Positions 1,757 through 27,859 of a DNA stretch of 64,000 nt are shown here, one piece after another. Position 1 is the stretch's first letter; each line of letters starts with the position of its first letter. The notes under the pieces are model-generated. The model ran no database searches. It was not told the origin of the DNA and saw only the letters and a program-made list of their open reading frames with translations. The stretch is from the NCBI GenBank assembly GCA_019359445.1, contig JAHHHJ010000006.1, positions 124,001-188,000 of the forward strand, read 5' to 3'. A program made the position numbers and the translations under genes. Origin of the DNA: Kastovskya adunca ATA6-11-RM4 (GTDB taxonomy: Bacteria > Cyanobacteriota > Cyanobacteriia > Cyanobacteriales > Coleofasciculaceae).

Positions 1757-1858
1757 AGCCAACGCCTTGCATGATAACGACTCAAATCAGCGAAGGCAGT
1801 TAACCTCGAACTCAGCACTAGCGGTTTTCAACCGCCCGTTGCATTTGAATTGTTAGCC
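1757..1858 (-). other. attC-like integron recombination site
   Basis: Read on the minus strand, the 102-base segment starts GGCTAACAATTCAAATGCAA and ends CAAGGCGTTGGCT. The ends resemble the R'' (RYYYAAC) and R' (GTTRRRY) boxes of attC sites and pair with each other through GGCTAAC/GTTGGCT, allowing G-U pairs. An inner TTCAAAT/ATTTGAG pairing also exists. The R'' box forms the last codons of brnA, as is common when a cassette ORF runs into its attC. Each box deviates from consensus at one position, so activity is uncertain. The identification rests on my comparison with remembered attC and VCR sequences. Confidence 0.55.
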
Positions 1859-2160
1859 TGCTGGATGAGGCTCACTTTGCTTGCTGACGCTGGATGAGCT
1901 TTGTGTGCCTCAGCATAAATTCTCAGCGCCACAGACAGCTGTTGTTCAGCGCTCTCTCCTTGTGCCTGAAACCAAGCAAGTGTATCGGGATCGACTAAAA
2001 CTGATACTTTTATTGGTGACTTTGGCATTCGCAATTGCGCTTTGGCAAAAAACTCCTCTGACAGTGGCGGAATATCAGAGGTGTCAATATCTTCATCGCT
2101 CATCGCGTCGATCCTAGCCCAATCGGTTCTGGAGGTATTGTTCATAGCGTCTGCGTTCAT
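1828..2160 (-). CDS. brnA: BrnA-type antitoxin
   Basis: A 110-residue BrnA-family antitoxin. The motif set TDWARIDAMSDEDIDTSDIPPL, then EEFFAKAQLRMPKSP and VSVLVDPDTLAWFQAQGE, then ALRIYAEAH, is characteristic. BrnA proteins are DNA-binding antitoxins that neutralise the BrnT ribonuclease and autorepress the operon. The ATG at 2160 has an AAAGG ribosome-binding site about nine bases upstream and lies inside the 3' end of brnT, the normal overlap. The last eleven residues are read from the attC-like site. Because the accompanying brnT lacks its 5' part, this antitoxin is probably an orphan left from a cassette. Confidence 0.85.
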   Translation of the reverse strand: MNADAMNNTSRTDWARIDAMSDEDIDTSDIPPLSEEFFAKAQLRMPKSPIKVSVLVDPDTLAWFQAQGESAEQQLSVALRIYAEAHKAHPASASKVSLIQQANNSNATGG

Positions 2161-2305
2161 GAGTCAGTGCCTTTCGTAGGGAGATGATACGGACTATTTC
2201 CTCTTCAAGCTCGGTGTACACAACGACTACAACCCGCCCACTTAGTAAACCGATGCCAATCCATCGATCTTCACCATAATCTTCCCGATCATCAAATTCG
2301 ACAAG
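2114..2305 (-). pseudogene. brnT: brnT toxin, 3' fragment
   Basis: Residues encoded here (from FDDREDYGEDRWIGIGLL through VVVVVYTE to ISLRKALTHERRRYEQ) match the C-terminal half of BrnT ribonucleases. Upstream of about base 2305 the frame runs on to 2428, but that extension is the antisense of an integrase fragment and is not BrnT sequence. The N-terminal half of the toxin, with its usual start and first catalytic residues, is therefore missing, and the frame begins at a TTG. A toxic product seems unlikely. The intact brnA overlaps its 3' end. Confidence 0.75.
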
Positions 2306-2445
2306 CAGCTGTTTCTCTATCGTGAAGTACTCAATCTCGACAGGGCAGGCATTGAAGCCGTTCGAGCGAAACGAACTCAGTATGTGCCAACTGTGTTGAC
2401 CAAGCAGGAGGCGATCGCCGCGATCCAACAGTGTGACGGTATTAG
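2306..2445 (+). pseudogene. Integron-type tyrosine integrase fragment, copy 2
   Basis: Translation gives LFLYREVLNLDRAGIEAVRA followed by KRTQYVPTVLTKQEAIAAIQQ, the region joining the core-binding and catalytic domains of integron-type integrases. It has no internal stop, unlike copy 1, but both ends are missing: homology starts abruptly at the brnT junction and ends in unrelated sequence near 2445. The two copies are alike over about 130 bases. The fragment faces away from the brnT/brnA/attC-like unit, as intI does relative to its cassettes. That fits a collapsed integron but does not prove it. Confidence 0.75.
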
Positions 2446-2619
2446 GATTTGGAGCCTAGAGGATATAAATCAGCGATCGCAACTGAATATCGCCTGATAT
2501 TTCGGAGGCTGTAAAGATGTCAACCCATGGTTTAGAGGCATTCGTTGTGTCTTCTTGCCGGACTTCTTTCACCTAACCGACCTCAGAGGAGAGGAATCAT
2601 CCTCTACGCACCTCTGCGT

Positions 2620-3711
2620 TTAAAAAAAATTCCCTAGAGTCTTTGTCAGTAAAGCTTCTAGTTGTTCAGCTCGATGGGCGTAGGTGTGTTCAGCTAATAC
2701 CCGCTTACGAGCAGCTTCACCGATCATCTGTGCCTTCTCTGGTGTTAGTTGGCGCAGGTGTTCTGCTACGTCATGACCATTTTCGGCAACCAAAATTTCG
2801 CGCTCTGGCTCAAGGAATAAATCAATCCCTTTCCAGACATCCGAAATAATACAAGCCCCAGCCCCGGCGGCTTCAAAGACTCGTGTGGCTGGAGAAAAGC
2901 CGTATCTTGCCATACTTTCGCGGCTGATATTCAACACAGCTTGGGGCGTGCAGTTGAAGGCGTTGTGGTCGCGGGTATAAACATGCCCTAAATATTTAAC
3001 ATTGCTGGGTAATGGCTTATCGTCCCAGCCGTTACCGCCCAGAAGGAATTGCTCCTGTGGTAACTCCGCCGCCGCACGGAGGAAAAATTCTTCCACACGC
3101 GCTTCTCTGTCGGGGAGGCGATTTCCTAAAAAGCCCAGCTTGCACTCAAATTTAGGATCGGGTGCGACGCCGTAGTGAGTCGTTGCATCAAGGGCGTTGT
3201 AGATGGGGACGCACTCACGAGCACCCAAGGCTTTGTAAGCGTTGACGACGGGTTCGCCGCCGCCGTAGGTGAGAATTAAGTCGTAGCGGGGGATCAGGGA
3301 ACGAAAGGAATCAGCAGGGTTATTTTGAACTCGGTCAAGGGTGGCTGGTGCGTCCACATCCCAGAAGACAATCAGGGAGTGAGGTTGTTTAAGTTCTAAA
3401 ACGGCGGATTCTAGAAATTCATCGAAGACACCCACCCCACTTGCTTTCACAATCAAGTCGGCATTCTGGGCATCTTTCAAACAGCCAAGTAGAGCATCCT
3501 TAGAAGCATCGTAGACGACAACCGTTGCCCAGTCTGGATCGGGAAGATCGCGGTGTTTTTGGCGATCGTAAGCATCTGGCTCGTAGAAGGTAACGTGATG
3601 TCCCCGCTCATGTAAGGCTCGAATCATCCCGCGATAATAAGTTGCTGCACCGTTCCAGTAGGCAGAGACAAGGCTAGAACCGAAAAATGCAATATTGAGT
3701 CTATTTGTCAT
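2620..3711 (-). CDS. CgeB-like family glycosyltransferase
   Basis: A 363-residue protein resembling CgeB/DUF3880-type glycosyltransferases, which have two Rossmann-like halves and a GT-B fold. The N-terminal strand LNIAFFGSSLVSAYWNGAAT is followed by a central segment with LILTYGGGEPVVNAY. The C-terminal nucleotide-sugar half has KLGFLGNRLPDREARVEEFF, then RESMARYGFSPATRVFEAAG and GACIISD, the usual acidic donor-binding region. It is soluble, with no membrane segment. It opens the downstream end of a minus-strand cluster of glycosyltransferases, a radical SAM protein and epimerases, so a role in building a cell-surface or stored oligosaccharide is likely. Donor and acceptor are unknown. Confidence 0.8.
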   Translation of the reverse strand: MTNRLNIAFFGSSLVSAYWNGAATYYRGMIRALHERGHHVTFYEPDAYDRQKHRDLPDPDWATVVVYDASKDALLGCLKDAQNADLIVKASGVGVFDEFLESAVLELKQPHSLIVFWDVDAPATLDRVQNNPADSFRSLIPRYDLILTYGGGEPVVNAYKALGARECVPIYNALDATTHYGVAPDPKFECKLGFLGNRLPDREARVEEFFLRAAAELPQEQFLLGGNGWDDKPLPSNVKYLGHVYTRDHNAFNCTPQAVLNISRESMARYGFSPATRVFEAAGAGACIISDVWKGIDLFLEPEREILVAENGHDVAEHLRQLTPEKAQMIGEAARKRVLAEHTYAHRAEQLEALLTKTLGNFF

Positions 3712-3735
3712 CTCAAACTTATTATTCCGCCGTTA

Positions 3736-4101
3736 TCAGTTGAATTCTGATGAGTTTTTTAGTTGCATAATTCGATTTTTCCAGCTTTGATTGCCTTCTA
3801 GGGTAAGAACAATTTTTTTGAAGGGTTCTTCCTGAAGTTCTAAAACTAAATAATCCCGGTCTTTTACGACATACCAAAACTCCCGACCTCTAGGAGTGTA
3901 GTAAGTTCCAGCTTTGATGATGCCAGGAAGGAAGGTTCCAGGGGCACGAATTTCTTGCCAACTGCTGGGAGGTTCATCTGTTGTGATGTTGAGGATATGA
4001 GCTAAGGGAATTTTAAATGGGTTGGTAAAGTTAAAGGCCCAAAACTGCTCAATTTCTTCCCATTCAATTTTTAGAATTTCGTTCTCAATGGTTAGTTTCA
4101 T
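3736..4101 (-). CDS. Conserved hypothetical protein, PH-like beta-strand pattern
   Basis: A 121-residue protein with alternating beta-strand segments (MKLTIENEILKIEWEEIEQF, then GREFWYVVKDRDYLVLELQ and KKIVLTLEG). It contains the phrase APGTFLPGIIKAGTYYTPRG, which resembles small bacterial PH-like domain proteins that read out as WYV-x-LVLELxxEPxxxIVL. There is no signal peptide or membrane helix. It lies between two CgeB-like glycosyltransferase genes on the same strand, 24 bases upstream of the first, so it is probably co-transcribed with that gene. No specific function can be given. Confidence 0.7.
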   Translation of the reverse strand: MKLTIENEILKIEWEEIEQFWAFNFTNPFKIPLAHILNITTDEPPSSWQEIRAPGTFLPGIIKAGTYYTPRGREFWYVVKDRDYLVLELQEEPFKKIVLTLEGNQSWKNRIMQLKNSSEFN

Positions 4102-4151
4102 TGTTTAATTTAATAGTTAGATGGTAAGTGGAGGAAGTAAGTAAGTTTGAC

Positions 4152-4180
4152 GAACCACAGAGGCACAGAGGTCACGGAGG
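4152..4180 (+). repeat. Interspersed repeat copy, intergenic
   Basis: The 27-base core starting GAACCACAGAGGCACAGAGG matches, with one difference, the reverse complement of 5938-5964 inside the GT4 gene. This sequence family is common in cyanobacterial intergenic DNA. Confidence 0.7.
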
Positions 4181-4236
4181 AGGAGAAGAGAGAGTTTTTT
4201 AGCTTATTTTGGATGGTTATAGAAAGAGGGTTGATT

Positions 4237-5364
4237 CTAAAGTTTTGATGATGTCTCGACCGCTTCGGAACCTTCGAGTTCTACATAAATATTTAGCAGT
4301 TCATCAACTCGATGGGCGCAGGTGTGTCGAGAGAGGATGGTTTGGTGTCCGTGCTGGGCTATTTCGTTTCGCATCTGGTCATCTTGAAGTAAGGTATTTA
4401 AATGGCGTTGCATTTCCTCGCCAGTATGAGCAATTAAGAAGTCTTTACCGGGTGTAAATAAGCCTTCAATATCTTCCCACGGCGCGGATATGAGCGGAAT
4501 GCCACAGGCGAGGGCTTCAAAAACGCGGATAGTGGGAATACCGGGGAGGGCTTTGACGTAGGGACAGCGGGGAATGTGGACGGTAACTTTGAATCGTGAG
4601 AATACCTGCGGGACTTCGTAATTCGGCAGCCATCCGGCGTATTCAATTCCAGCGGATGATAGGGAAGCGATCGCCTCTTCTGGATAGCGCACTCCATGCA
4701 CCCGTGCCTTTATCCCCAATGCCTTCACGGGTTCAATTAGAAACTCGTATAATTCAGCGGTGCGTTCCTCATCTCCCCAGTTGCCAATCCAAACTAAGTC
4801 ACCAAGGGATTTTGAGTTTTCCCCCACTTCTGGATGAAAAAGGCGTGTATCTGCGGCTTCGTGCCAAGTCCAAGCCTGTTGCGTCCAGCCTTCGGTGAGA
4901 TAAATATCGCGGATCACATTGCCGTATGCCAAGACGCCATCGTAGTTGGAGAGGTCGTAGGCTGCCATACTAGCCTTATCGCTGACAGAGCGATGATGGG
5001 TATCGTGGAACAGCAGCCGATATCCGCCGACTTTGTGGCGATGTTCTCCGAGGCGTCGAACTAACGTGCGATCGCTCCATTCATGGACAATGACTAAATC
5101 TGCATCATCCAGCACTTGATCAAGATTGAGGGCGTTTAAGTCATAGCGGATACTATCAAGACCTGGATAGGCAGAATAAAATCCTTGAATCGGCTCCTCT
5201 CCATGTTCTGCCAACAGATTTTGCAGACTCCAAGCATCTTTCGGTTCGTATACGCTCACATCATAATGACGCGATCGCAACTCACTCACTACACCCCGCA
5301 AAAAATGAGCATTCCCATGATTCCAGTCAGATAAGAGTGAGTGATAAAACAGTACAATCCGCAT
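4237..5364 (-). CDS. CgeB-like family glycosyltransferase
   Basis: A 375-residue GT-B glycosyltransferase of the same general kind as the gene at 2620-3711 but clearly diverged. It starts MRIVLFYHSLLSDWNHGNAH; a middle strand ADLVIVHEWSDRTLVRRLG is followed by RLLFHDTHHRSVSDK. The C-terminal donor half contains DLVWIGNWGDEERTAELYEF, VHIPRCPYVKALPGIPTIRV and FEALACGIPLISAPW, where F-E-A-L-A-C-G is the acidic motif that contacts the nucleotide sugar. No signal or membrane segment is seen. It is part of the minus-strand sugar cluster. Sugar specificity cannot be inferred. Confidence 0.82.
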   Translation of the reverse strand: MRIVLFYHSLLSDWNHGNAHFLRGVVSELRSRHYDVSVYEPKDAWSLQNLLAEHGEEPIQGFYSAYPGLDSIRYDLNALNLDQVLDDADLVIVHEWSDRTLVRRLGEHRHKVGGYRLLFHDTHHRSVSDKASMAAYDLSNYDGVLAYGNVIRDIYLTEGWTQQAWTWHEAADTRLFHPEVGENSKSLGDLVWIGNWGDEERTAELYEFLIEPVKALGIKARVHGVRYPEEAIASLSSAGIEYAGWLPNYEVPQVFSRFKVTVHIPRCPYVKALPGIPTIRVFEALACGIPLISAPWEDIEGLFTPGKDFLIAHTGEEMQRHLNTLLQDDQMRNEIAQHGHQTILSRHTCAHRVDELLNIYVELEGSEAVETSSKL

Positions 5365-5377
5365 AACTGAATAAAAG

Positions 5378-5433
5378 GATGAAGGATGAAGTGTGAAGGA
5401 TGAAGTATGAAGGATGAAGTATGAAGGATGAAG
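5378..5433 (+). repeat. Heptamer tandem repeat (GATGAAG type)
   Basis: Exactly eight 7-bp units, alternating GATGAAG with TATGAAG or TGTGAAG, lie between two glycosyltransferase genes. A related inverted stretch (CTTCATC) sits at about 5534-5560, at the very 3' end of the next gene. This is a short tandemly repeated repetitive (STRR) element of the kind known from filamentous cyanobacteria. Confidence 0.9.
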
Positions 5434-5541
5434 TTTTATCTAGACTTACGTCGATGAGGCGTGAAAACGTTAATTATCTCGTAGGGGCATTGCCACGCCC
5501 TTAATCCGTGAGTTTTGCATAAGTCCTAACTTTTTCATCCT

Positions 5542-6672
5542 TCATCCTTTACACTTCAGCCTTCTTAAGTCTTGATAAGCATCCAAATAACTAAGTACCA
5601 TCCGCTCAGGCGTAAACTCAAGCGCACGAGTACGGGCACTCTTAGCAAGAGATGTGCGTAGAGAAGAGTCACCCATCAAACTATCAATTGCACTAAAAAG
5701 CGCTTCTCGATCGTCCGGTGGTACAAACAAAGCCGCCTCCCCCCAAATCTCCCGCAAACTGGGAATATCCCCCAACACCAACGCACAGCCCGACAGTGCC
5801 GCCTCCAACACCGATAACCCAAACGGTTCATACCGTGCCGGAAGCGCATAAATCGCCGCCTTAGCATACCACCCCGCCAACTCCTCAGGAGACAACCGCC
5901 CCAAAAACACCGGAGAATCCCCCTCTCCCCCTCCTTCTCCGTGTCCTCTGTGCCTCTGTGGTTCATTACTCCCATACTTCCCCTCCCCCACCAGATAAAT
6001 ACACCAAGACACCTCCGACGCGATCGCCTCCAACGCCGCCACATTCTTTGCCTGATCCCACAACCGCCCCGCCGTCAGGATAAACGGCTTTTTCTCAAGG
6101 GGATAAAACCGATCGCGATCGCCACCATTCGGCACTACTCTCCCCTGGGTGACACCATAATGTTTCTTTAATGCTGCCAACATTGCCGCAGAAGGTGCAA
6201 CCACTAAATCTGCCGCCTGCAACCCTCGCCTTACCTCTTGGCGATATCGCTCCCAACTAGCAGGGGCGGGTTCCCCCTTCACCGCCTCCCACCACGACAG
6301 CACGCAAGAATGCCCTACCATCAAAATAGGCGATCGCCAAGCCAATCCCCCATGAGCATAGCCATTGAGATGCACCACATCAGGCTGGAGGCGTGCTTCC
6401 AACTCCAGCAACCACTCCCCCGCCTTGATGACATCCTCCCAAGGCTCCTCCATCCACTCCAACTTGAAACTACTCTCAAACACCTGTATGGGTGCAAGGC
6501 TTTGCGCTCCTATTTGTTGGCTTACCTGACGCTGTTGGGGCGTTAGAGGTGCGCCCATTGTTGCCAGTGCCACCTCTACCCCCTGTTTTCCCAGCTCCTG
6601 CGCGAGTTCCAAAGCGTAAGTCCAGACACCGCCAATAGTGTCAGCCGTCATCAAAACGCGTTTCACTAACAT
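5542..6672 (-). CDS. GT4 family glycosyltransferase with repeat-derived insertion
   Basis: A GT-B, retaining GT4-type glycosyltransferase of 376 residues. The N-terminal half starts VLMTADTIGGVWTYALELA, with PDVVHLNGYAHGGLAW at 98-113. The C-terminal half has KPFILTAGRLWDQAKN and the E-x7-E donor motif in PARYEPFGLSVLEAALSG at 278-295. I prefer the ATG at 6672, which has GAGGGG nine bases upstream, to a TTG at 6717. Residues about 235-252, between YLVGEGKYG and PVFLGRLSPEEL, are encoded by a dispersed intergenic-type repeat (NEPQRHRGHGE) inserted in frame. The insertion lies in a loop between strands of the donor domain, so the enzyme may remain active. Substrate unknown. Confidence 0.85.
   Translation of the reverse strand: MLVKRVLMTADTIGGVWTYALELAQELGKQGVEVALATMGAPLTPQQRQVSQQIGAQSLAPIQVFESSFKLEWMEEPWEDVIKAGEWLLELEARLQPDVVHLNGYAHGGLAWRSPILMVGHSCVLSWWEAVKGEPAPASWERYRQEVRRGLQAADLVVAPSAAMLAALKKHYGVTQGRVVPNGGDRDRFYPLEKKPFILTAGRLWDQAKNVAALEAIASEVSWCIYLVGEGKYGSNEPQRHRGHGEGGGEGDSPVFLGRLSPEELAGWYAKAAIYALPARYEPFGLSVLEAALSGCALVLGDIPSLREIWGEAALFVPPDDREALFSAIDSLMGDSSLRTSLAKSARTRALEFTPERMVLSYLDAYQDLRRLKCKG
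5938..5964 (-). repeat. Interspersed repeat inside a coding region
   Basis: Reverse complement of the 4152-4180 repeat with 26 of 27 bases identical. It is read in frame within the GT4 gene and encodes NEPQRHRGHGE. Confidence 0.8.
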
Positions 6673-6722
6673 TCGTGGAATCCCCTCATGAATGGAGAGG
6701 GGTTTTAGAGATTGCAACCGAT

Positions 6723-8009
6723 TTATTTTGTAGGCGCGCTAAGTTCCAACTGAGATAAAGGCAAGGGCTGCTCATCTTGAATATCGCTAAATTCTGCATA
6801 AACATCCAAATAGTAAGCATTTGCCCGTTCCCACGCTTCCTCATCTGGGAAACCCCACTTTTTCGTATAGTCAGGAGAGCCAGGGTAAGGAAATAGCGGC
6901 ACAGGTTTATTTGCCCAGACACCAAACTGCTGTAAGTGCTGACGCCAAGCTGCGATCGCTTCTGGATCATCCACTTTCCCCTCTAGCAAATTCGCCTGCA
7001 CAAACGGAACGTGTTTCTTAGCGTGAATCAGTAACTCACTCAGCGCTTCAGTGGAGAGTTTGCAGTTTTTATCTAATAGCTGACGCCCTTGTTCAGAAAT
7101 GCTCTCCACACCTGCCTCAATGGAAACGCAACCCGCACGACCTAATAGTTCCAATAGCGATCGCGTCCACAAATCGATCCGCGTCTGAATCCCAAATTTC
7201 ACCGGACGTTCTACCAAGGCTTCTAGTAGCGAGCGATTGGGCAAGAAAATCTCATCAATAAAGTAGACGTACTCCACACCCTGAGCAATTAAACCGTCCA
7301 GTTCTTCCAAAATTACAGCCAGAGGACGCTTGCGGTAGCTGTTGCGGAAGTTGTCCTTCGCGCAGAATGAGCAATGGTAAGGACAACCGCGAGAGGTTTC
7401 CATCTCCGCACCCGCACCTGTTGGTGCCGCCTCGAAACGATGATGGTGGTGATGATGGCGTTGAATTGTTTCTGCTTGCCAATGCAACGCTGGCAATGCC
7501 GTCATATCAGAAGTATGAGGACTACCCTGGAGACGGGGTTTATCCCCATCCCAGTAACAGATAGAGGAGACATTCTCCCAATTTTCCGTTAATTTAGGCA
7601 AAAATTCCTCGCATTCCCCTAAAACAACCACATCCACACCCAGTTTCTTCAGCGTTGCTTTGGGAGTTGTGGAGCCGTGGGGCCCAACTGCAACCATTGT
7701 GCCGCCGATATTCCGCAGGTCTAGCACGGTTTCTTGGGGAACGCGCAGTTCTGGAGGGGCACAGCGCCAGAATAGATAGCTAGGAGCAGTAGTAACAACA
7801 GTAAAGTCTGGCTTAAAAGCAGCGACTTGGTTTCTGATGTCTTCTGGTGAAAGGTTGTATAACTGCCCATCAACAATTAAAACTTCATGCCCTTGCTGCT
7901 CCAGCAGGGCTTTAGCATAACCGTATTCCAATGGCAGATGGGGTTCTCGACAGCCGAAGTAGATGCTGCCCGTAAATGTCCAGTTGGGATTAATAAGTGC
8001 GTACTTCAT
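6723..8009 (-). CDS. B12-binding domain radical SAM protein
   Basis: A 428-residue radical SAM enzyme with an N-terminal cobalamin-binding-like Rossmann domain (about 1-140: LPLEYGYAKALLEQQGHEVL, VDVVVLGECEEFLPKL). The core (about 200-390) carries the [4Fe-4S] ligands C209-x3-C213-x2-C216 in SRGCPYHCSFCAKDNF. Later motifs include VEYVYFIDEIFLPN and SIEAGVESISEQG. From memory it resembles the TIGR04295 'rhizo-twelve' family, whose neighbours are glycosyltransferases, a glycosidase and epimerases, as here. The reaction is unknown; class B enzymes of this layout often methylate unactivated carbons. Residues 185-190 are a natural six-His run. Its stop is about 50 bases before the GT4 start, suggesting one operon. 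Confidence 0.85.
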   Translation of the reverse strand: MKYALINPNWTFTGSIYFGCREPHLPLEYGYAKALLEQQGHEVLIVDGQLYNLSPEDIRNQVAAFKPDFTVVTTAPSYLFWRCAPPELRVPQETVLDLRNIGGTMVAVGPHGSTTPKATLKKLGVDVVVLGECEEFLPKLTENWENVSSICYWDGDKPRLQGSPHTSDMTALPALHWQAETIQRHHHHHHRFEAAPTGAGAEMETSRGCPYHCSFCAKDNFRNSYRKRPLAVILEELDGLIAQGVEYVYFIDEIFLPNRSLLEALVERPVKFGIQTRIDLWTRSLLELLGRAGCVSIEAGVESISEQGRQLLDKNCKLSTEALSELLIHAKKHVPFVQANLLEGKVDDPEAIAAWRQHLQQFGVWANKPVPLFPYPGSPDYTKKWGFPDEEAWERANAYYLDVYAEFSDIQDEQPLPLSQLELSAPTK

Positions 8010-21259: not shown

Positions 21260-21526
21260 ATGAAATTAGATTCCCAAAAACCCAAAGTCAGCGCTAAGTT
21301 GCGCTTGCACCCCCTCCAGTGGGGATTTGAGACTGACCTTAGCCCCTCAAAGCCAGAGTACAAGGCGGATACCTGGGTACAACTGCAAGAACTACCTAGC
21401 CCCTACTGTCAGGACGAAGCACTGCTCCTGTGTCAGGAATCTGAAGATGTGTGGGTGGTCTGGATTCCAGAGCATGGTGAAGCCGTGCTACATACTAGTC
21501 AGTTTCATCTAGCAACAGACTGGTAA
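21260..21526 (+). CDS. Small conserved hypothetical protein
   Basis: An 88-residue soluble protein with an AAGGAG ribosome-binding site just before its ATG. The second half (WVQLQELPSPYCQDEALLLC, DVWVVWIPEHGEAVLH) forms beta-strands with many aromatic residues. I have the impression of a cyanobacterium-specific family, but have no name for it. It faces away from the ATPase and its end lies 66 bases from the convergent four-gene operon, giving no functional hint. Confidence 0.7.
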   Translation: MKLDSQKPKVSAKLRLHPLQWGFETDLSPSKPEYKADTWVQLQELPSPYCQDEALLLCQESEDVWVVWIPEHGEAVLHTSQFHLATDW

Positions 21527-21592: not shown

Positions 21593-22381
21593 TTACAACG
21601 TCAGCCGCGCTAAAATCCCTTTGGCAATTCTATGCCTCAGTGACTGATGGGAGAGCAAACCCAACAGCATCTGGCGCACTGTCCATCTCCTCATAAATGG
21701 CAGCAACAACAGTAGCAGAGGCTTCAAGACAAGCCGCAAAAGCCAAGAGGCTAGCACAGGTATCAGTAGGGTGATGGGATTAAGAAGTAGGGGCTGAATG
21801 TAAGGAATTGCGGCTAGAACAACAGTTAGCACTGATAGCCCCCAAGATATTCCCTCTAACCAGAAGACGATTCTGAGCCGAAGCTGCTGGAGCAGTTGAG
21901 CGATCAGCCAGTAGTGAGCCGACACCATCTTCTGACAAAACTGGGGACGCTCTAAACAGTCACTCTTGATTTGGTGAATGATGTCGCCATCCAACGACAG
22001 CAAGCTCCGCATGACGGCTTCTTCTAAGACTCCTTGATGATAGTAGGTACAAAACGTCAGCCCAGAGCGGATGCCATTGTCCTGACTGAACAATGTGTGG
22101 TAGCGCAAATCCGCCAGCAGTTGACGCGGAATGTAAGTGGTTTGATTGGTTGCTTGGGCGGATTGAATTTCTGCCAAGCTATTGTTGTCTAAATTGAAGC
22201 GAATGCCGTAAAAGAGCGATCGCGTTTTGCCAATTTTTTCTTGCTCAAGTTGAATATACGGCTCTAGGTTGAAAGCTTGTCCCCGGTAAGCAGGCTGTGG
22301 GCGTAAGGCTTTCGGGAAAGGTCGTGTTCGAGCAGTTATGTGCCGTCCTTTAGTCCGGGCTTTGTTTGATTTTTTACCCAT
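21593..22381 (-). CDS. Shared-domain operon gene D: membrane protein with DGDI module
   Basis: A protein of 262 residues. The N terminus is strongly basic (MGKKSNKARTKGRHITARTR). A soluble part contains the shared module LLSLDGDIIHQIKSDCLERP (DGDI at 131-134, His156). Two or three long hydrophobic helices follow (about 178-230). I chose the ATG at 22381; the frame extends 23 codons upstream into TTAGTTGTTAG-type intergenic repeats. It is the last gene of a four-gene minus-strand operon, 93 bases after gene C. It could anchor the other three products to a membrane. No known family recognised; the function is unknown. Confidence 0.7.
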   Translation of the reverse strand: MGKKSNKARTKGRHITARTRPFPKALRPQPAYRGQAFNLEPYIQLEQEKIGKTRSLFYGIRFNLDNNSLAEIQSAQATNQTTYIPRQLLADLRYHTLFSQDNGIRSGLTFCTYYHQGVLEEAVMRSLLSLDGDIIHQIKSDCLERPQFCQKMVSAHYWLIAQLLQQLRLRIVFWLEGISWGLSVLTVVLAAIPYIQPLLLNPITLLIPVLASWLLRLVLKPLLLLLLPFMRRWTVRQMLLGLLSHQSLRHRIAKGILARLTL

Positions 22382-22474
22382 TTCATGCGACCTATTTGAG
22401 CCGTAGTTAGTTGTTAGTCTTTTGTGGCTAGAAGGGATTTTATCTAACAAATAACAACCAACAACTAATAACTT

Positions 22475-23335
22475 TTATTTGGGCGTTCGACCAGGAAAGA
22501 TATTGATATTAGCACCCCGGTGCAGTGCGGATTGAACTAAACCAACGACAAACTCTAGCAATCCACGCCACTGCCTTTCCCCAGCGATCACACCTTCTTC
22601 GTGGACTTTGAGAATTAAGTCTTTGTGAGGATGGTCAAAGACTTGCTGGCTGTAGCGGTTGATGATGTCGCCATCAAGCTGAATGATAGTTTGAGCATAG
22701 ATCATGTCAGTTTTGACCGACTTTTCAATAAATTCGGGTTTGACAGGGTTGGGTAACTCATATTCCCGTCGTAGAAGAGCTTTGTTGCGGTTATCTAGGG
22801 CGGCTTTAAGTTCGCCAATCTTACGCAAGCTGCGGAGAAAATTACTGTCACTTAGTACCCGATGCACCTGTAAAAGATCTTCTGAATTGGTGGGTGCTAG
22901 AGAATCTGGGAGATGCGTCTGCAACTGTTCCAGCTCGATGCTTGGGTTAATCAGGATGGGGCAATCGGTGGGGGAAATCGTAGGGTCGTAAAGACCGGAA
23001 CTGGGGTCAGTCAGGAGTAGGGTGTACTCTAGTTCTAGATGGCGGCGGAGATCGATATAGCGCTCGCGCAAGGATTCATGTACCTCTTGCTGCTCTAGAT
23101 AGTTGCGGTTAATTTGATAAACATCTCGGTAAGTTTCCCAAGGAATGAACTTTTCCCCGCTGATTTGCTCCACGATCATTGTGTTCACTTCCAATGCCGT
23201 GATGTCAATGAGTACTCCCCCCAAAGACTGCAAAAAATCATCCAACATTCGACTCAACCCCGGAGTCACCTGTCTGCTACTGCTATTAGATAGGGGGGCA
23301 AGTTCTTGGCGATTTTGTCTTCTTGTATTAGCCAT
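22475..23335 (-). CDS. Shared-domain operon gene C: soluble protein with DGDI module
   Basis: A protein of 286 residues, starting at the ATG at 23335 with AGAGG six bases upstream. An N-terminal helix pair (LDDFLQSLGGVLIDITALEV) parallels the start of genes A and B. The middle is helical (RERYIDLRRHLELEYTLLL). The shared module is near the C terminus: TIIQLDGDIINRYSQQVFDH (DGDI at 221-224), then His245 and V-I-A-G at the same spacing as in genes A and B (DGDI-x20-H-x3-V-x-A-G). It starts 18 bases after gene B. No membrane segment. Function unknown. Confidence 0.72.
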   Translation of the reverse strand: MANTRRQNRQELAPLSNSSSRQVTPGLSRMLDDFLQSLGGVLIDITALEVNTMIVEQISGEKFIPWETYRDVYQINRNYLEQQEVHESLRERYIDLRRHLELEYTLLLTDPSSGLYDPTISPTDCPILINPSIELEQLQTHLPDSLAPTNSEDLLQVHRVLSDSNFLRSLRKIGELKAALDNRNKALLRREYELPNPVKPEFIEKSVKTDMIYAQTIIQLDGDIINRYSQQVFDHPHKDLILKVHEEGVIAGERQWRGLLEFVVGLVQSALHRGANINIFPGRTPK

Positions 23336-23353
23336 CGTCAACCTCTAATGTTC

Positions 23354-25282
23354 CTAGTTGTTCTCATTGGGATAGCGATCGGGTGACGGTGAGGGAGGCA
23401 TTCTTTGTTCTTCCTCAGACATTAAAGGGATGGATGGGTCATGGTTCGGGGGGGTTTGCTCTTCTAGCCCATTATCTTGCCAGCTAAACTCCTCACTCTC
23501 TTCCTCAGAAAGTTCCTCCTCCAATCCATCAAACAACATCTCGATGGGGTTATCATACCGAGGCTCGGAGCGATCGCCTGATTCTGTCATTGGCAAGAAG
23601 CGATCCAACTCATCTAAAGGGCTGTCCTTTGTCGGTTCACCCAAGTCATCAACACCTCTATCTTTTGCAGACTCCACTACCGGATAAGGTTCCAGTTCCT
23701 CCACAGAAAAGCTTTCCCAGTCCTCATCTTCATCCAACTCTGGTGTGGAATGATTGAGGGCAGATGACACCCCAAACGGATCGTCATCCGCGTCTATCCC
23801 AAACTCATCCCACTCTTCCTCCGCTTCCAAATCTAGAGAATCGAGGCTCGGAACTGCCTCACTAGGTTGAGCAGGTGCTGGTAATTCTTCCCAATCATCC
23901 CAGTCCTCATCAGCTTCCAAATCTAGAGAATCTAAATTGGGAATGGATGCTTCCGGTGTCATCGATTTAACCTCAGCATCAATCGGCTCTTCCCAGCCCT
24001 CATCGTCAGGGGCGTCTGACGCTTCCTCTTCAGGCAATAACTCCAAATCCTCTAGGGAGAAGATTTCCCAGTCCTGATTATCCTCCTGGTGTGCCGCCGC
24101 GACATCAGGGGATAGTTCCAGTTCCTCTTGCTCTTCCACCATATCTCCCCAATCTTCGTCATCATCCCACTGTGCGGCTGACTCACCCGGTGGGATAACA
24201 GGTAAAGACTCCAGCAAATCTAAAACTGAGTCATCCCAGTTATCTTCCTCCTCTTCCTCTTCCAAATACAATTCATCGGCTATCGGCGCTCCATTTAGGG
24301 TTGGTTCTGCGGGGAAAGCCGTTGGCTGCGTTTCCTCTTCCTCAGTCACCAGAGATTCGACTACAGCTTCTGGTAGCTCGGTTACCAACTCAGCCCTATG
24401 AGCGATCGCCCAATCGTCTTCCTCGCTCGGCGTCTCTTCCGGTGCAGTTATCTCTGTATCTGTAAAAACTGCCACCTCTGGAGCTGGAGAAGAAACATCT
24501 TCCTCCCTAAAGGTTTCTTCTGGGGAAGCCACCTCTGTATCTATAAAGGCTTCCACCTCTGGAGTGGTAGTAGAGAGGTCTTCCTCGCGCGGCGTTTCTT
24601 CCGGTGCGATCGTAATATCCAGTTCTGGATACTCCACCACCGGAGCGCTAGTGAAGACATCGACTTCCCTCCCTGTTTCTTCTGGGGAAACCGGGTTATC
24701 TGTGCGGGTAAAAGATTCAATAACTGGGGCAGTGTCGAAAAAATCTTCCTGACTGAATGACTCTTCCGGAGCTGGAGTTATACCCATCTCAGGGAATGGC
24801 TCAACCACCGGGACAGTACTAAAAGAGTCTTCCGGTGCGGAGGTCGTAGCATCGGTGTCGAGCAACAACTGATCTTGCAGGAATAGCTGATCCGGCTCAA
24901 TAACAGATTCACCAAGACTCTGCTGCCGCATCATCGCTAGCACCCCAAACAGCTTTTCTAAGCTTTTGAGGTTGTTTTGAATCGTTTGACCACCTTTGGC
25001 AACTTGTTCTGTGTGAAACTGGCGCAGCTCTCTGTAGGGCCCGTTGCCAATGAATTGGTCGCCCACCTCGTTTTCAATATCGCCCTCCATCATATTGATG
25101 CGAGTGCGGAGGCGATGACCGGGTTTGGCGTGGTCTGGCTCTCCTGTTTGTGCAGCATCACCATCAATTGAGGCTACCCAGGTGGTAATTTTCAGCTCAA
25201 TGGCTTCGCTCAGTGCTAGCGCCAACGCTTCAGTCAAGTTGCCTGCTTTAAGTTTTTGTTTGAAGTCGTCGCTCGACGCCAT
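23354..25282 (-). CDS. Shared-domain operon gene B: DGDI module plus long acidic Trp-repeat tail
   Basis: A protein of 642 residues. Residues 1-115 are a close paralogue of gene A (ALALSEAIELKITTWV; EGDIENEVGDQFIGNG at 66-81; ELRQFHTEQV with His90). Residues 150-290 are Pro/Glu/Thr-rich repeats (PEETPREED type). Residues 285-605 carry eight or nine short acidic motifs around Trp, such as EDNWDDSVLDLLESLP, DWEIFSLEDLELLP, EADEDWDDWEELP and DEDWESFSVEELEPYP. Such a tail looks disordered and multivalent. The start is ATG 25282 with AGGA about eleven bases upstream. It follows gene A by 74 bases. Likely a scaffold; no family name known to me. Confidence 0.75.
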   Translation of the reverse strand: MASSDDFKQKLKAGNLTEALALALSEAIELKITTWVASIDGDAAQTGEPDHAKPGHRLRTRINMMEGDIENEVGDQFIGNGPYRELRQFHTEQVAKGGQTIQNNLKSLEKLFGVLAMMRQQSLGESVIEPDQLFLQDQLLLDTDATTSAPEDSFSTVPVVEPFPEMGITPAPEESFSQEDFFDTAPVIESFTRTDNPVSPEETGREVDVFTSAPVVEYPELDITIAPEETPREEDLSTTTPEVEAFIDTEVASPEETFREEDVSSPAPEVAVFTDTEITAPEETPSEEDDWAIAHRAELVTELPEAVVESLVTEEEETQPTAFPAEPTLNGAPIADELYLEEEEEEDNWDDSVLDLLESLPVIPPGESAAQWDDDEDWGDMVEEQEELELSPDVAAAHQEDNQDWEIFSLEDLELLPEEEASDAPDDEGWEEPIDAEVKSMTPEASIPNLDSLDLEADEDWDDWEELPAPAQPSEAVPSLDSLDLEAEEEWDEFGIDADDDPFGVSSALNHSTPELDEDEDWESFSVEELEPYPVVESAKDRGVDDLGEPTKDSPLDELDRFLPMTESGDRSEPRYDNPIEMLFDGLEEELSEEESEEFSWQDNGLEEQTPPNHDPSIPLMSEEEQRMPPSPSPDRYPNENN

Positions 25283-25356
25283 GATGCTATTTTTCCTAAA
25301 GGTGGGCGGTGGGCTAGCCAAACAGTAAAAAATTTGCGCTCTAATTCCTGCTAAGT

Positions 25357-25794
25357 TTACGGCAAGTTATCTCGACTAGAAGGCGGAAGGACAGGATTAC
25401 CATCAGTTAGTCGGTGTGATGACCCAGGCATTTGAGCCAGAGTGTTATTTAAAACAATAAATAGCTGTTGCAAGTTTTGCAGGTTTTGCTGAATGATTTG
25501 CCGCCCTGCCAGAACTTGTTGGTTATGGAATTGTCGCAGTTCGGTGTAGGGCCCATTGCCGATAAACTGGCTGCCGACCTCGTTTTCAATATCACCATCT
25601 ATGATGTTCATGCGGGTTCGCATCCGGTAGCCAGGAGCCGGAGAATTGACTGGTTCTGAGCTATCCGTATCTGAGTCTGCGGTGGAAACCCAGGTGGTAA
25701 TTTCTAACTCTACGGCTTCACTTAGCGCCAGGGTTAGAGCCTCTGGAATCTTACCCGATGTGAGTTTCTCTTTAAAGTCGTCGCTGATTGTCAT
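25357..25794 (-). CDS. Shared-domain operon gene A: minimal DGDI-module protein
   Basis: A 145-residue protein that is essentially the module alone: ISDDFKEKLTSGKIPEALTL, ALSEAVELEITTWVS, RTRMNIIDGDIENEVGSQFI (DGDI at 66-69), ELRQFHNQQVLAG with His90 and a closing helix QQNLQNLQQLFIVL. The numbering is identical to gene B over residues 1-115, showing a recent duplication. The ATG at 25794 fits the paralogue start; the frame runs on 25 codons into a decayed insertion sequence. It is the first gene of the operon. Soluble; function unknown. Confidence 0.75.
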   Translation of the reverse strand: MTISDDFKEKLTSGKIPEALTLALSEAVELEITTWVSTADSDTDSSEPVNSPAPGYRMRTRMNIIDGDIENEVGSQFIGNGPYTELRQFHNQQVLAGRQIIQQNLQNLQQLFIVLNNTLAQMPGSSHRLTDGNPVLPPSSRDNLP

Positions 25795-26482: not shown

Positions 26483-27085
26483 CTAATGATTTTCTTGCCA
26501 AAAGTCGGTAACTTTGTAGCCTAGCTCGCCGAGCATCTGGCGCAGTAGGGGTAGGCTGAGACCGATGACGTTACTGTGGCAACCTTCGAGTTTTTCCACA
26601 AAAAATCCACCTTTACCTTCTAGGGCGAAGTTGCCAGCGCATTTGAGGGGTTCGCCTGTAGCAACGTAAGCCGCGATCTCTTCGTCACTCACATCGGCAA
26701 AATGCACTTTGGTGATGCCGCAGCGTACTAGAGTTTTATCTTGAGAATGGTCGATGATTGCATGACCTGTGTAGAGACTGCCGATTGTACCGCGCATCTG
26801 CTGCCAACGCGCGATCGCTTCTGCTGTATCCGCAGGTTTACCATAAATCTCTCCCCCCACGCTCAACACGGAATCACAGCCCAAAATCAAGCCCTCGCTA
26901 AATTGCTCTGCCACCGTCTGGGCTTTGTTCAGTGCTAAGGTTTCCACTAACCTCTGAGGATCGCTCAACTGCACTGTTGACTCATCAAAGTCACTGACGC
27001 GAACGACAGGGTCAATTCCCCCCGTTTGTAACAACCGTTTACGAGCAGGAGATGCAGAAGCTAAGACAAAGATAGGAATGGTCAT
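26483..27085 (-). CDS. maf: Maf-family nucleoside triphosphate pyrophosphatase
   Basis: A 200-residue Maf/HAM1-like house-cleaning pyrophosphatase, which hydrolyses non-canonical or modified nucleotides to monophosphates. Family motifs are [14 protein letters not shown] at the start, [20 protein letters not shown], the long strand [48 protein letters not shown] and [12 protein letters not shown] start at the ATG at 27085; the frame continues upstream for 43 codons, but those are Pro/Ser-rich residues read from octamer repeats. Cytosolic. The gene is next to repeat-rich intergenic DNA, with no operon partner. Confidence 0.93.
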
Positions 27086-27120
27086 CTGTCTAAAGTTAGA
27101 ACATTGGCAAGTTGAAGGAA

Positions 27121-27184
27121 GGGAGCCGGGGAGCGGGGGAGCCGGGGAGCAGGGGAACGGGGGAGCGGGGGAGCAGGGGAGCGA
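27121..27184 (+). repeat. Octamer tandem repeat (GGGGAGCC type)
   Basis: Eight 8-bp units, mostly GGGAGCCG, GGGAGCGG and GGGAGCAG, the reverse-complement family of 9450-9513. It lies immediately upstream of maf. Confidence 0.85.
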
Positions 27185-27230
27185 GGGAGAGAAAAATCGA
27201 TGACGATTAGCCATTACTCCAATCGCCTAT

Positions 27231-27319: not shown

Positions 27320-27859
27320 CTAGTAAACAGAGAAAGACTTTGCCATTATCTCGAAGGTGTCATGAACTTTGCGCCAGCGTTGGTTGGTGGTAGAGGCGTT
27401 AAGGGTAAAGAGTTTGCCTCGACTGACTGCAACACTGGCGATGTCGTGGCGATTTTGGTTGGGAAGTTTTACCTCGTATTCCAGGAGATAATATTCGTGG
27501 TTGCCGTTGATGTGGGATTGGGCGTTGACGAGTTCCGCTGTTCGGTTGGAATTCGGTGGAGCGATCGCGTTTTTTTGCAATTGGTAGCCGACTTCACTGG
27601 GAGTCCCCAAATCTGCTAAGGTTTGGTTCTCTGGTACAGGACTGATGACTACTGAAACGTTTTCTGTGCGCTCAATGATGTCATGTAAGACAACATCTGG
27701 CCCATCACCTACTTCAACTACTTGCCAGCCGTTCGGGTAGAGAAACTGGTAGCCCTTAGTGCTATCGACATAACTTTTTAAGCCACTGACTCCGGTAGCG
27801 CAACCATGCAGGCTCACGCTCAATACGACCAGCAGTGAGGCAATGATGGTTTTGAGCAT
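27320..27859 (-). CDS. PsbP-like (CyanoP) lipoprotein
   Basis: A 179-residue thylakoid-lumen lipoprotein of the PsbP family, with lipobox SLHGC (Cys20). The PsbP signature is clear: GLKSYVDSTKGYQFLYPNGW, VVEVGDGPDVVLHDIIERTE, NVSVVISPVPENQTLADLG, LVNAQSHINGNHEYYLLEYE and a C-terminal FTLNASTTNQRWRKV. CyanoP assists photosystem II assembly and is a peripheral early-assembly factor. The ATG at 27859 has no strong SD. It is a single gene; 320 bases upstream separate it from the divergent TPR gene. The symbol is left blank because cyanobacterial names vary. Confidence 0.93.
   Translation of the reverse strand: MLKTIIASLLVVLSVSLHGCATGVSGLKSYVDSTKGYQFLYPNGWQVVEVGDGPDVVLHDIIERTENVSVVISPVPENQTLADLGTPSEVGYQLQKNAIAPPNSNRTAELVNAQSHINGNHEYYLLEYEVKLPNQNRHDIASVAVSRGKLFTLNASTTNQRWRKVHDTFEIMAKSFSVY

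Follow-up and report, generated by a model that had tools for sequence, protein, structure and literature searches.

The locus studied here raises the question of whether four adjacent genes descend from one module and, if so, whether their products work together. It lies in a 64,000-nucleotide stretch of the Kastovskya adunca ATA6-11-RM4 genome (the window), whose nearest relatives are Coleofasciculaceae. Four close-set genes, which we call A, B, C and D, occupy positions 21593-25794 of the window, all read from the minus strand and separated by short gaps (Table 1). A first-pass annotation had described them as an operon in which A consists of the module alone, B adds a long acidic tail and D adds membrane helices. 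The four genes are real, and both the bare module of A and the acidic tail of B were seen. For D, Kyte-Doolittle analysis points to hydrophobic segments at residues about 194-250 that are probably transmembrane. Translation of D is likelier to start at the ATG at 22381, giving a protein of 262 aa, than at the TTG.

Table 1. Positions of the four genes and of their parts in the window.
Feature	Position	Strand	Description
Gene A	25357..25794	-	145 aa; module alone and short variable C-terminus; present in 16 of 20 relatives
Module in A	25432..25710	-	Predicted beta1 (EITTWV), beta2, Gly67 turn, beta3, long helix with His90
Codon of Gly67 in A	25594-25596	-	
Codon of His90 in A	25525-25527	-	
Gene B	23354..25282	-	ATG start, 642 aa; A-like module, then long acidic tail
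Module in B	24920..25198	-	Residues about 29-121, from beta1 through the long helix
Tail of B	23357..24877	-	Acidic, probably disordered; repeated Trp-acidic motif
Gene C	22475..23335	-	ATG start, 286 aa; module with helical insert between beta1 and beta2
beta1 of C module	23174..23197	-	Residues 47-54, ALEVNTMI region
Helical insert of C	22706..23173	-	Residues 55-210 (AlphaFold2)
Rest of C module	22508..22705	-	Predicted beta2, Gly222 turn, beta3, long helix with His245
Gene D	21593..22450	-	285 aa from TTG; module and hydrophobic segments; net charge +21
Module in D	21881..22060	-	GLTFCTYY, then RSLLSLDGDI (Gly155), then helix with His179; placed from sequence only
Hydrophobic region of D	21701..21871	-	Probable transmembrane, residues about 194-250 (Kyte-Doolittle)
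Basic C-terminal tail of D	21596..21700	-	7 K/R, 0 D/E

We surveyed the motif in 217 relatives, comprising 37 A, 39 B, 24 Nostocales-type A, 61 C and 56 D proteins. The tetrapeptide DGDI, taken at first as the defining motif, did not hold up in this role: relatives read DGDI, DGAI, EGSI, DGNI, DGEV and so on, with positions 1 and 3 variable, and only the Gly of this beta-hairpin turn is essentially fixed. The near-invariant residues are this Gly and a His 23 to 25 residues later, which were kept in 212 and 215, respectively, of 216 aligned relatives. The Gly-to-His spacing claimed for the window proteins was confirmed: the two residues are 23 apart at G67/H90 of both A and B and at G222/H245 of C, and 24 apart at G155/H179 of D. 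Among relatives, 95 of the 96 A/B-type proteins that matched the pattern have a spacing of 23; C proteins mostly have 23 or 25, and D proteins have 24 or 23. The further motif H-x3-V-x-A-G, attributed to A, B and C, occurs in A and C; in B the sequence is H-x3-V-A-K-G. The D proteins share an invariant Gly and His, together with an invariant Trp two positions after the His. The common region extends beyond the motif to a strand upstream of it (ELEITTWV, ALEVNTM or GLTFCTYY). A catalytic or metal-binding role for DGDI was rejected, because the Asp positions are variable and the tetrapeptide forms a predicted hairpin turn.

Structure prediction gave a similar picture of the module. The AlphaFold2 model of A, built on 82 rows, is of moderate confidence (pLDDT 75, pTM 0.58) and contains a helix (16-27), three strands (29-35, 57-63 and 69-73) and a long helix (85-121). 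That of C, built on 47 rows (pLDDT 81.5, pTM 0.66), has a helix (25-44), a strand (47-54), the helical insert, two strands (211-219 and 224-228) and a last helix (238-276). The two models are independent and show the same helix-strand-strand-turn-strand-long-helix order. The turn that precedes strand 3 contains Gly67 in A and Gly222 in C, and the last helix reaches its His (His90 in A, His245 in C) after a few residues, so that the folds predicted around DGDI agree. The position of the Gly in the turn between strands 2 and 3, with the His 23 to 25 residues on near the start of the long helix, is found in sequence in all four proteins and in predicted structure in A and C. The strand and turn region of D can be proposed by analogy of sequence.

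How closely the four are related was addressed by sequence and profile comparisons. The modules of A and B are approximately 55% identical. In the source genome, a search with A matched A and B only, and searches with C and with D each matched one place. In our own profile comparison, the top ungapped 30-column match fell on the module in each of the pairings AB-C, AB-D and C-D. The module score was higher than that of all 7220 windows from 27 unrelated neighbor families (0 of 7220 null windows scored as high); like the profile figures that follow, this is rank evidence and not an exact probability, because related sequences are not independent. HHalign gave P values of 6e-5 for C-D and 0.004 for AB-D. 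For AB-C the P value of 0.05 was no better than that of reversed controls, the best of which reached 0.011.

It may be that A-B and C-D are two unrelated pairs that have the operon alone in common, their likeness reflecting convergence on a common beta-hairpin-plus-helix arrangement. The AB-C value from HHalign fits this explanation, as does the AB profile, which did not rank the sisters first: in the training loci, its top non-self match was an unrelated ORF. Nevertheless, the module was the top diagonal in every pairing, and the first 26 non-self matches of the D profile and the first 14 of the C profile in the same loci were sisters. We also searched 15 loci outside the training set, with 796 ORFs. 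The first nine non-D matches of the D profile were all A, B or C proteins, aligned at the module, and all twelve non-C matches listed for the C profile were A, B or D proteins; on some A proteins the C profile spanned the first strand as well as the turn region. Both profiles thus retrieve A proteins from genomes outside the training set. Moreover, the Gly/His register, the strand order and the upstream strand match in the two independent models, and we consider two unrelated pairs to be a rather unlikely origin of the locus.

Taken by sequence, the homology of A and B is obvious, and the profile and HHalign results make that of C and D firm, that of AB and D moderate, and that of AB and C weak by this means alone. 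The link between A/B and C is suggested mainly by predicted structure and register. The four genes and their common module are real, beyond chance, and homology across all four is likely. In a tree of A and B modules, the two were mostly separate, although many forks lacked resolution and some B rows grouped with A; an early A/B duplication is therefore likely, if not settled.

We then compared the four proteins with known families. Pfam and NCBIfam scans of the four genes and their relatives gave no credible match, PHROGs and PADLOC models gave sub-threshold chance matches alone, with no anti-phage or phage identity, and a PDB sequence search with three alignments found nothing below an E value of 0.1. 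Profile searches thus assigned none of the four to a known family. Foldseek comparisons of A and C with the PDB, and of A with viral models, gave no significant match. No papers were found on the putative corresponding Anabaena PCC 7120 locus tags, which we inferred from synteny, and the genes may already be in public records as hypothetical proteins.

The weak Foldseek matches included proteins of the YbaB/EbfC family (PF02575). The YbaB fold is a helix-three strands-helix arrangement, and A and C are likewise predicted to have a small domain of this kind with a similar strand order. YbaB itself (1pug) ranked first for A and the YbaB-type 1ybx eighth, and 1ybx ranked 19th and 25th for C, with E values of 1.9-5.6 and rmsd of 9-22 Å, which are not significant. 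As YbaB/EbfC proteins form homodimeric tweezers (PMC8581549), the modules could conceivably be nucleoid-type proteins of this fold that pair as tweezer-like dimers binding nucleic acid, with D and B tethering or regulating them. Every sequence test of membership failed, however. PF02575 matched neither the four window proteins nor their relatives, and its single match in the source genome was a separate, housekeeping copy on another contig (C35). HHalign to a cyanobacterial YbaB alignment paired the wrong regions (P 0.04-0.29). In addition, A, B and C are all net acidic, unlike typical DNA-binding proteins. A nucleoid-type role is thus very improbable, and YbaB is a weak fold lead and not a case of membership.

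To describe the distribution of the genes, we collected 65 loci from named genomes. The genes lie on one strand in the order A-B-C-D in 30 of the 65 and in the order A-C-D in 24; the remaining loci are partial, several of them at contig ends. The median intergenic gaps are 103 (A-B), 28 (B-C) and 9.5 (C-D) bases. The A-C-D loci, from Nostoc, Anabaena, a Chroococcidiopsidaceae and kin, belong mostly to Nostocales, and B is dispensable there, as it is absent. In a phylogenetic profile of 386 cyanobacterial genomes, C and D were each detected in 30, the identical set for both, and A was present in every one of these, although such co-occurrence counts are inflated by common ancestry. Eight further genomes gave A-type matches with C and D not detected; most have an A-type gene followed by a second module gene, and this second gene has an acidic, Trp-containing tail in those read. 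Such A-B pairs count in favor of two unrelated pairs in the operon. The absence of B in Nostocales and the lack of detected C and D in some genomes indicate that the composition is flexible, with no single fixed set. For contig scans, the A sequence alone gave no matches, and matches were obtained with an alignment-based scan.

The gene set is split yet kept in Moorena relatives. One of them (G007) has all four genes with D on a separate contig, and in Moorena bouillonii A is about 215 kb from B-C. Two other genomes (G137, contig C94, and G125, contig C62; loci L217 and L221) have D matches off the A-B-C contigs with several in-frame stops, which may point to decay or separation of D in this family.

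The genes around the operon were also inspected. A Maf-type gene (26483-27214, minus strand) and a PsbP-like lipoprotein gene (27320-27859, minus strand) are directly upstream of A. The Maf neighbor was found in 24 of the 65 loci and the PsbP-like one in 16, all outside Nostocales, where acetate kinase is downstream. This linkage is lineage specific and therefore uninformative on function. The Maf-like region is preceded by a short repeated segment rich in Pro, Ser and Cys at the beginning of the Maf ORF, whose start is possibly wrong. An 88-aa ORF on the plus strand (21260-21526) converges on D, and similar ORFs are found in four other loci (e.g., L070 and L103).

The tail of B contains a feature that the first-pass annotation overlooked, namely, a repeated Trp-acidic motif. 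In the window protein it appears as DEDWGDM, DEDWDDWEEL, DNWDDSVLDLLESLP, EEEWDEFG and DEDWESFS. We analyzed 48 B tails of 104 to 1353 residues, with a median of 31% Asp/Glu and a total of 389 Trp (median of 9 per tail). The pattern acidic-W-acidic-hydrophobic occurred 115 times, versus 4.2 times in shuffled tails (maximum of 12). Around the Trp, Asp was enriched 4.4-fold at position -1, Gly 4.6-fold at +1, and Phe/Trp 4- to 5-fold at +3. One B homologue (L036 in G016, 1835-7666, minus strand) is encoded by an open frame of 1944 residues and carries long tandem repeats in the tail; the B of most relatives is far smaller.

B thus has acidic residues on either side of Trp in a tail without known domains, which its composition suggests is disordered. 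Trp-acidic short linear motifs of kinesin-1 light-chain adaptors have the same Asp/Glu-flanked Trp in an acidic tail. A bacterial example is the C-terminal tail of WalK, in which a Trp-acidic motif is needed for response regulator binding (PMC9087282). B differs in carrying about ten copies of its motif per tail, and the likeness is one of motif type only, not homology. A simpler explanation would be that the tail alone serves as an acidic charge or chaperone-like element, buffering ions, polyamines or basic proteins without a specific partner. Its high acidic content and very variable length would suit such a role. In contrast, Trp is frequent and its flanking residues are strongly patterned, and charge alone needs no such pattern, which makes a pure buffer improbable. 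As for charge, D is basic (+21) and B strongly acidic (-153).

The view that one family has expanded inside the operon to give a soluble (A), an acidic-scaffold (B), an insert-bearing (C) and a membrane version (D) is supported by the profile comparison, the same predicted topology of A and C, the kept gene order and the exact co-occurrence of C and D. The assembled complex that was claimed along with it is not supported as stated, and here we infer the assembly. Our preferred reading, to which we give a probability of roughly 0.42, is that four diverged paralogues built on one module co-assemble into a membrane complex with D as its anchor and B as a multivalent scaffold. The modules would pair via the small sheet and the long helix, and the hydrophobic segments of D would fix the assembly to the membrane, with A and C as soluble subunits. 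The probably disordered acidic tail of B would bind a partner repeatedly through its many short Trp-acidic motifs, possibly aided by the basic tail of D, making B a scaffold or a client-gathering arm. A bolder version, in which the module is a new cyanobacteria-specific domain family and the four paralogues form a membrane-tethered hetero-oligomer, with B as the Trp-acidic client-gathering scaffold of an organizing platform of an undescribed kind, seems unlikely to us.

Surprise at such a locus is tempered, as uncharacterized conserved operons are common in cyanobacteria. Membrane-anchored complexes built from paralogues are likewise a familiar kind of system; the protein family itself has no description in the libraries that we searched. 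The four genes nevertheless represent a conserved set, co-inherited among many filamentous cyanobacteria and some unicellular ones, and fall outside all of those libraries. The set offers a clear fold prediction and fixed residues to mutate (Gly, His and Trp), and relatives of Nostoc and Anabaena are possible organisms for genetic tests. Should the complex be confirmed, it would represent a new assembly linked to the membrane and equipped with a multivalent scaffold.
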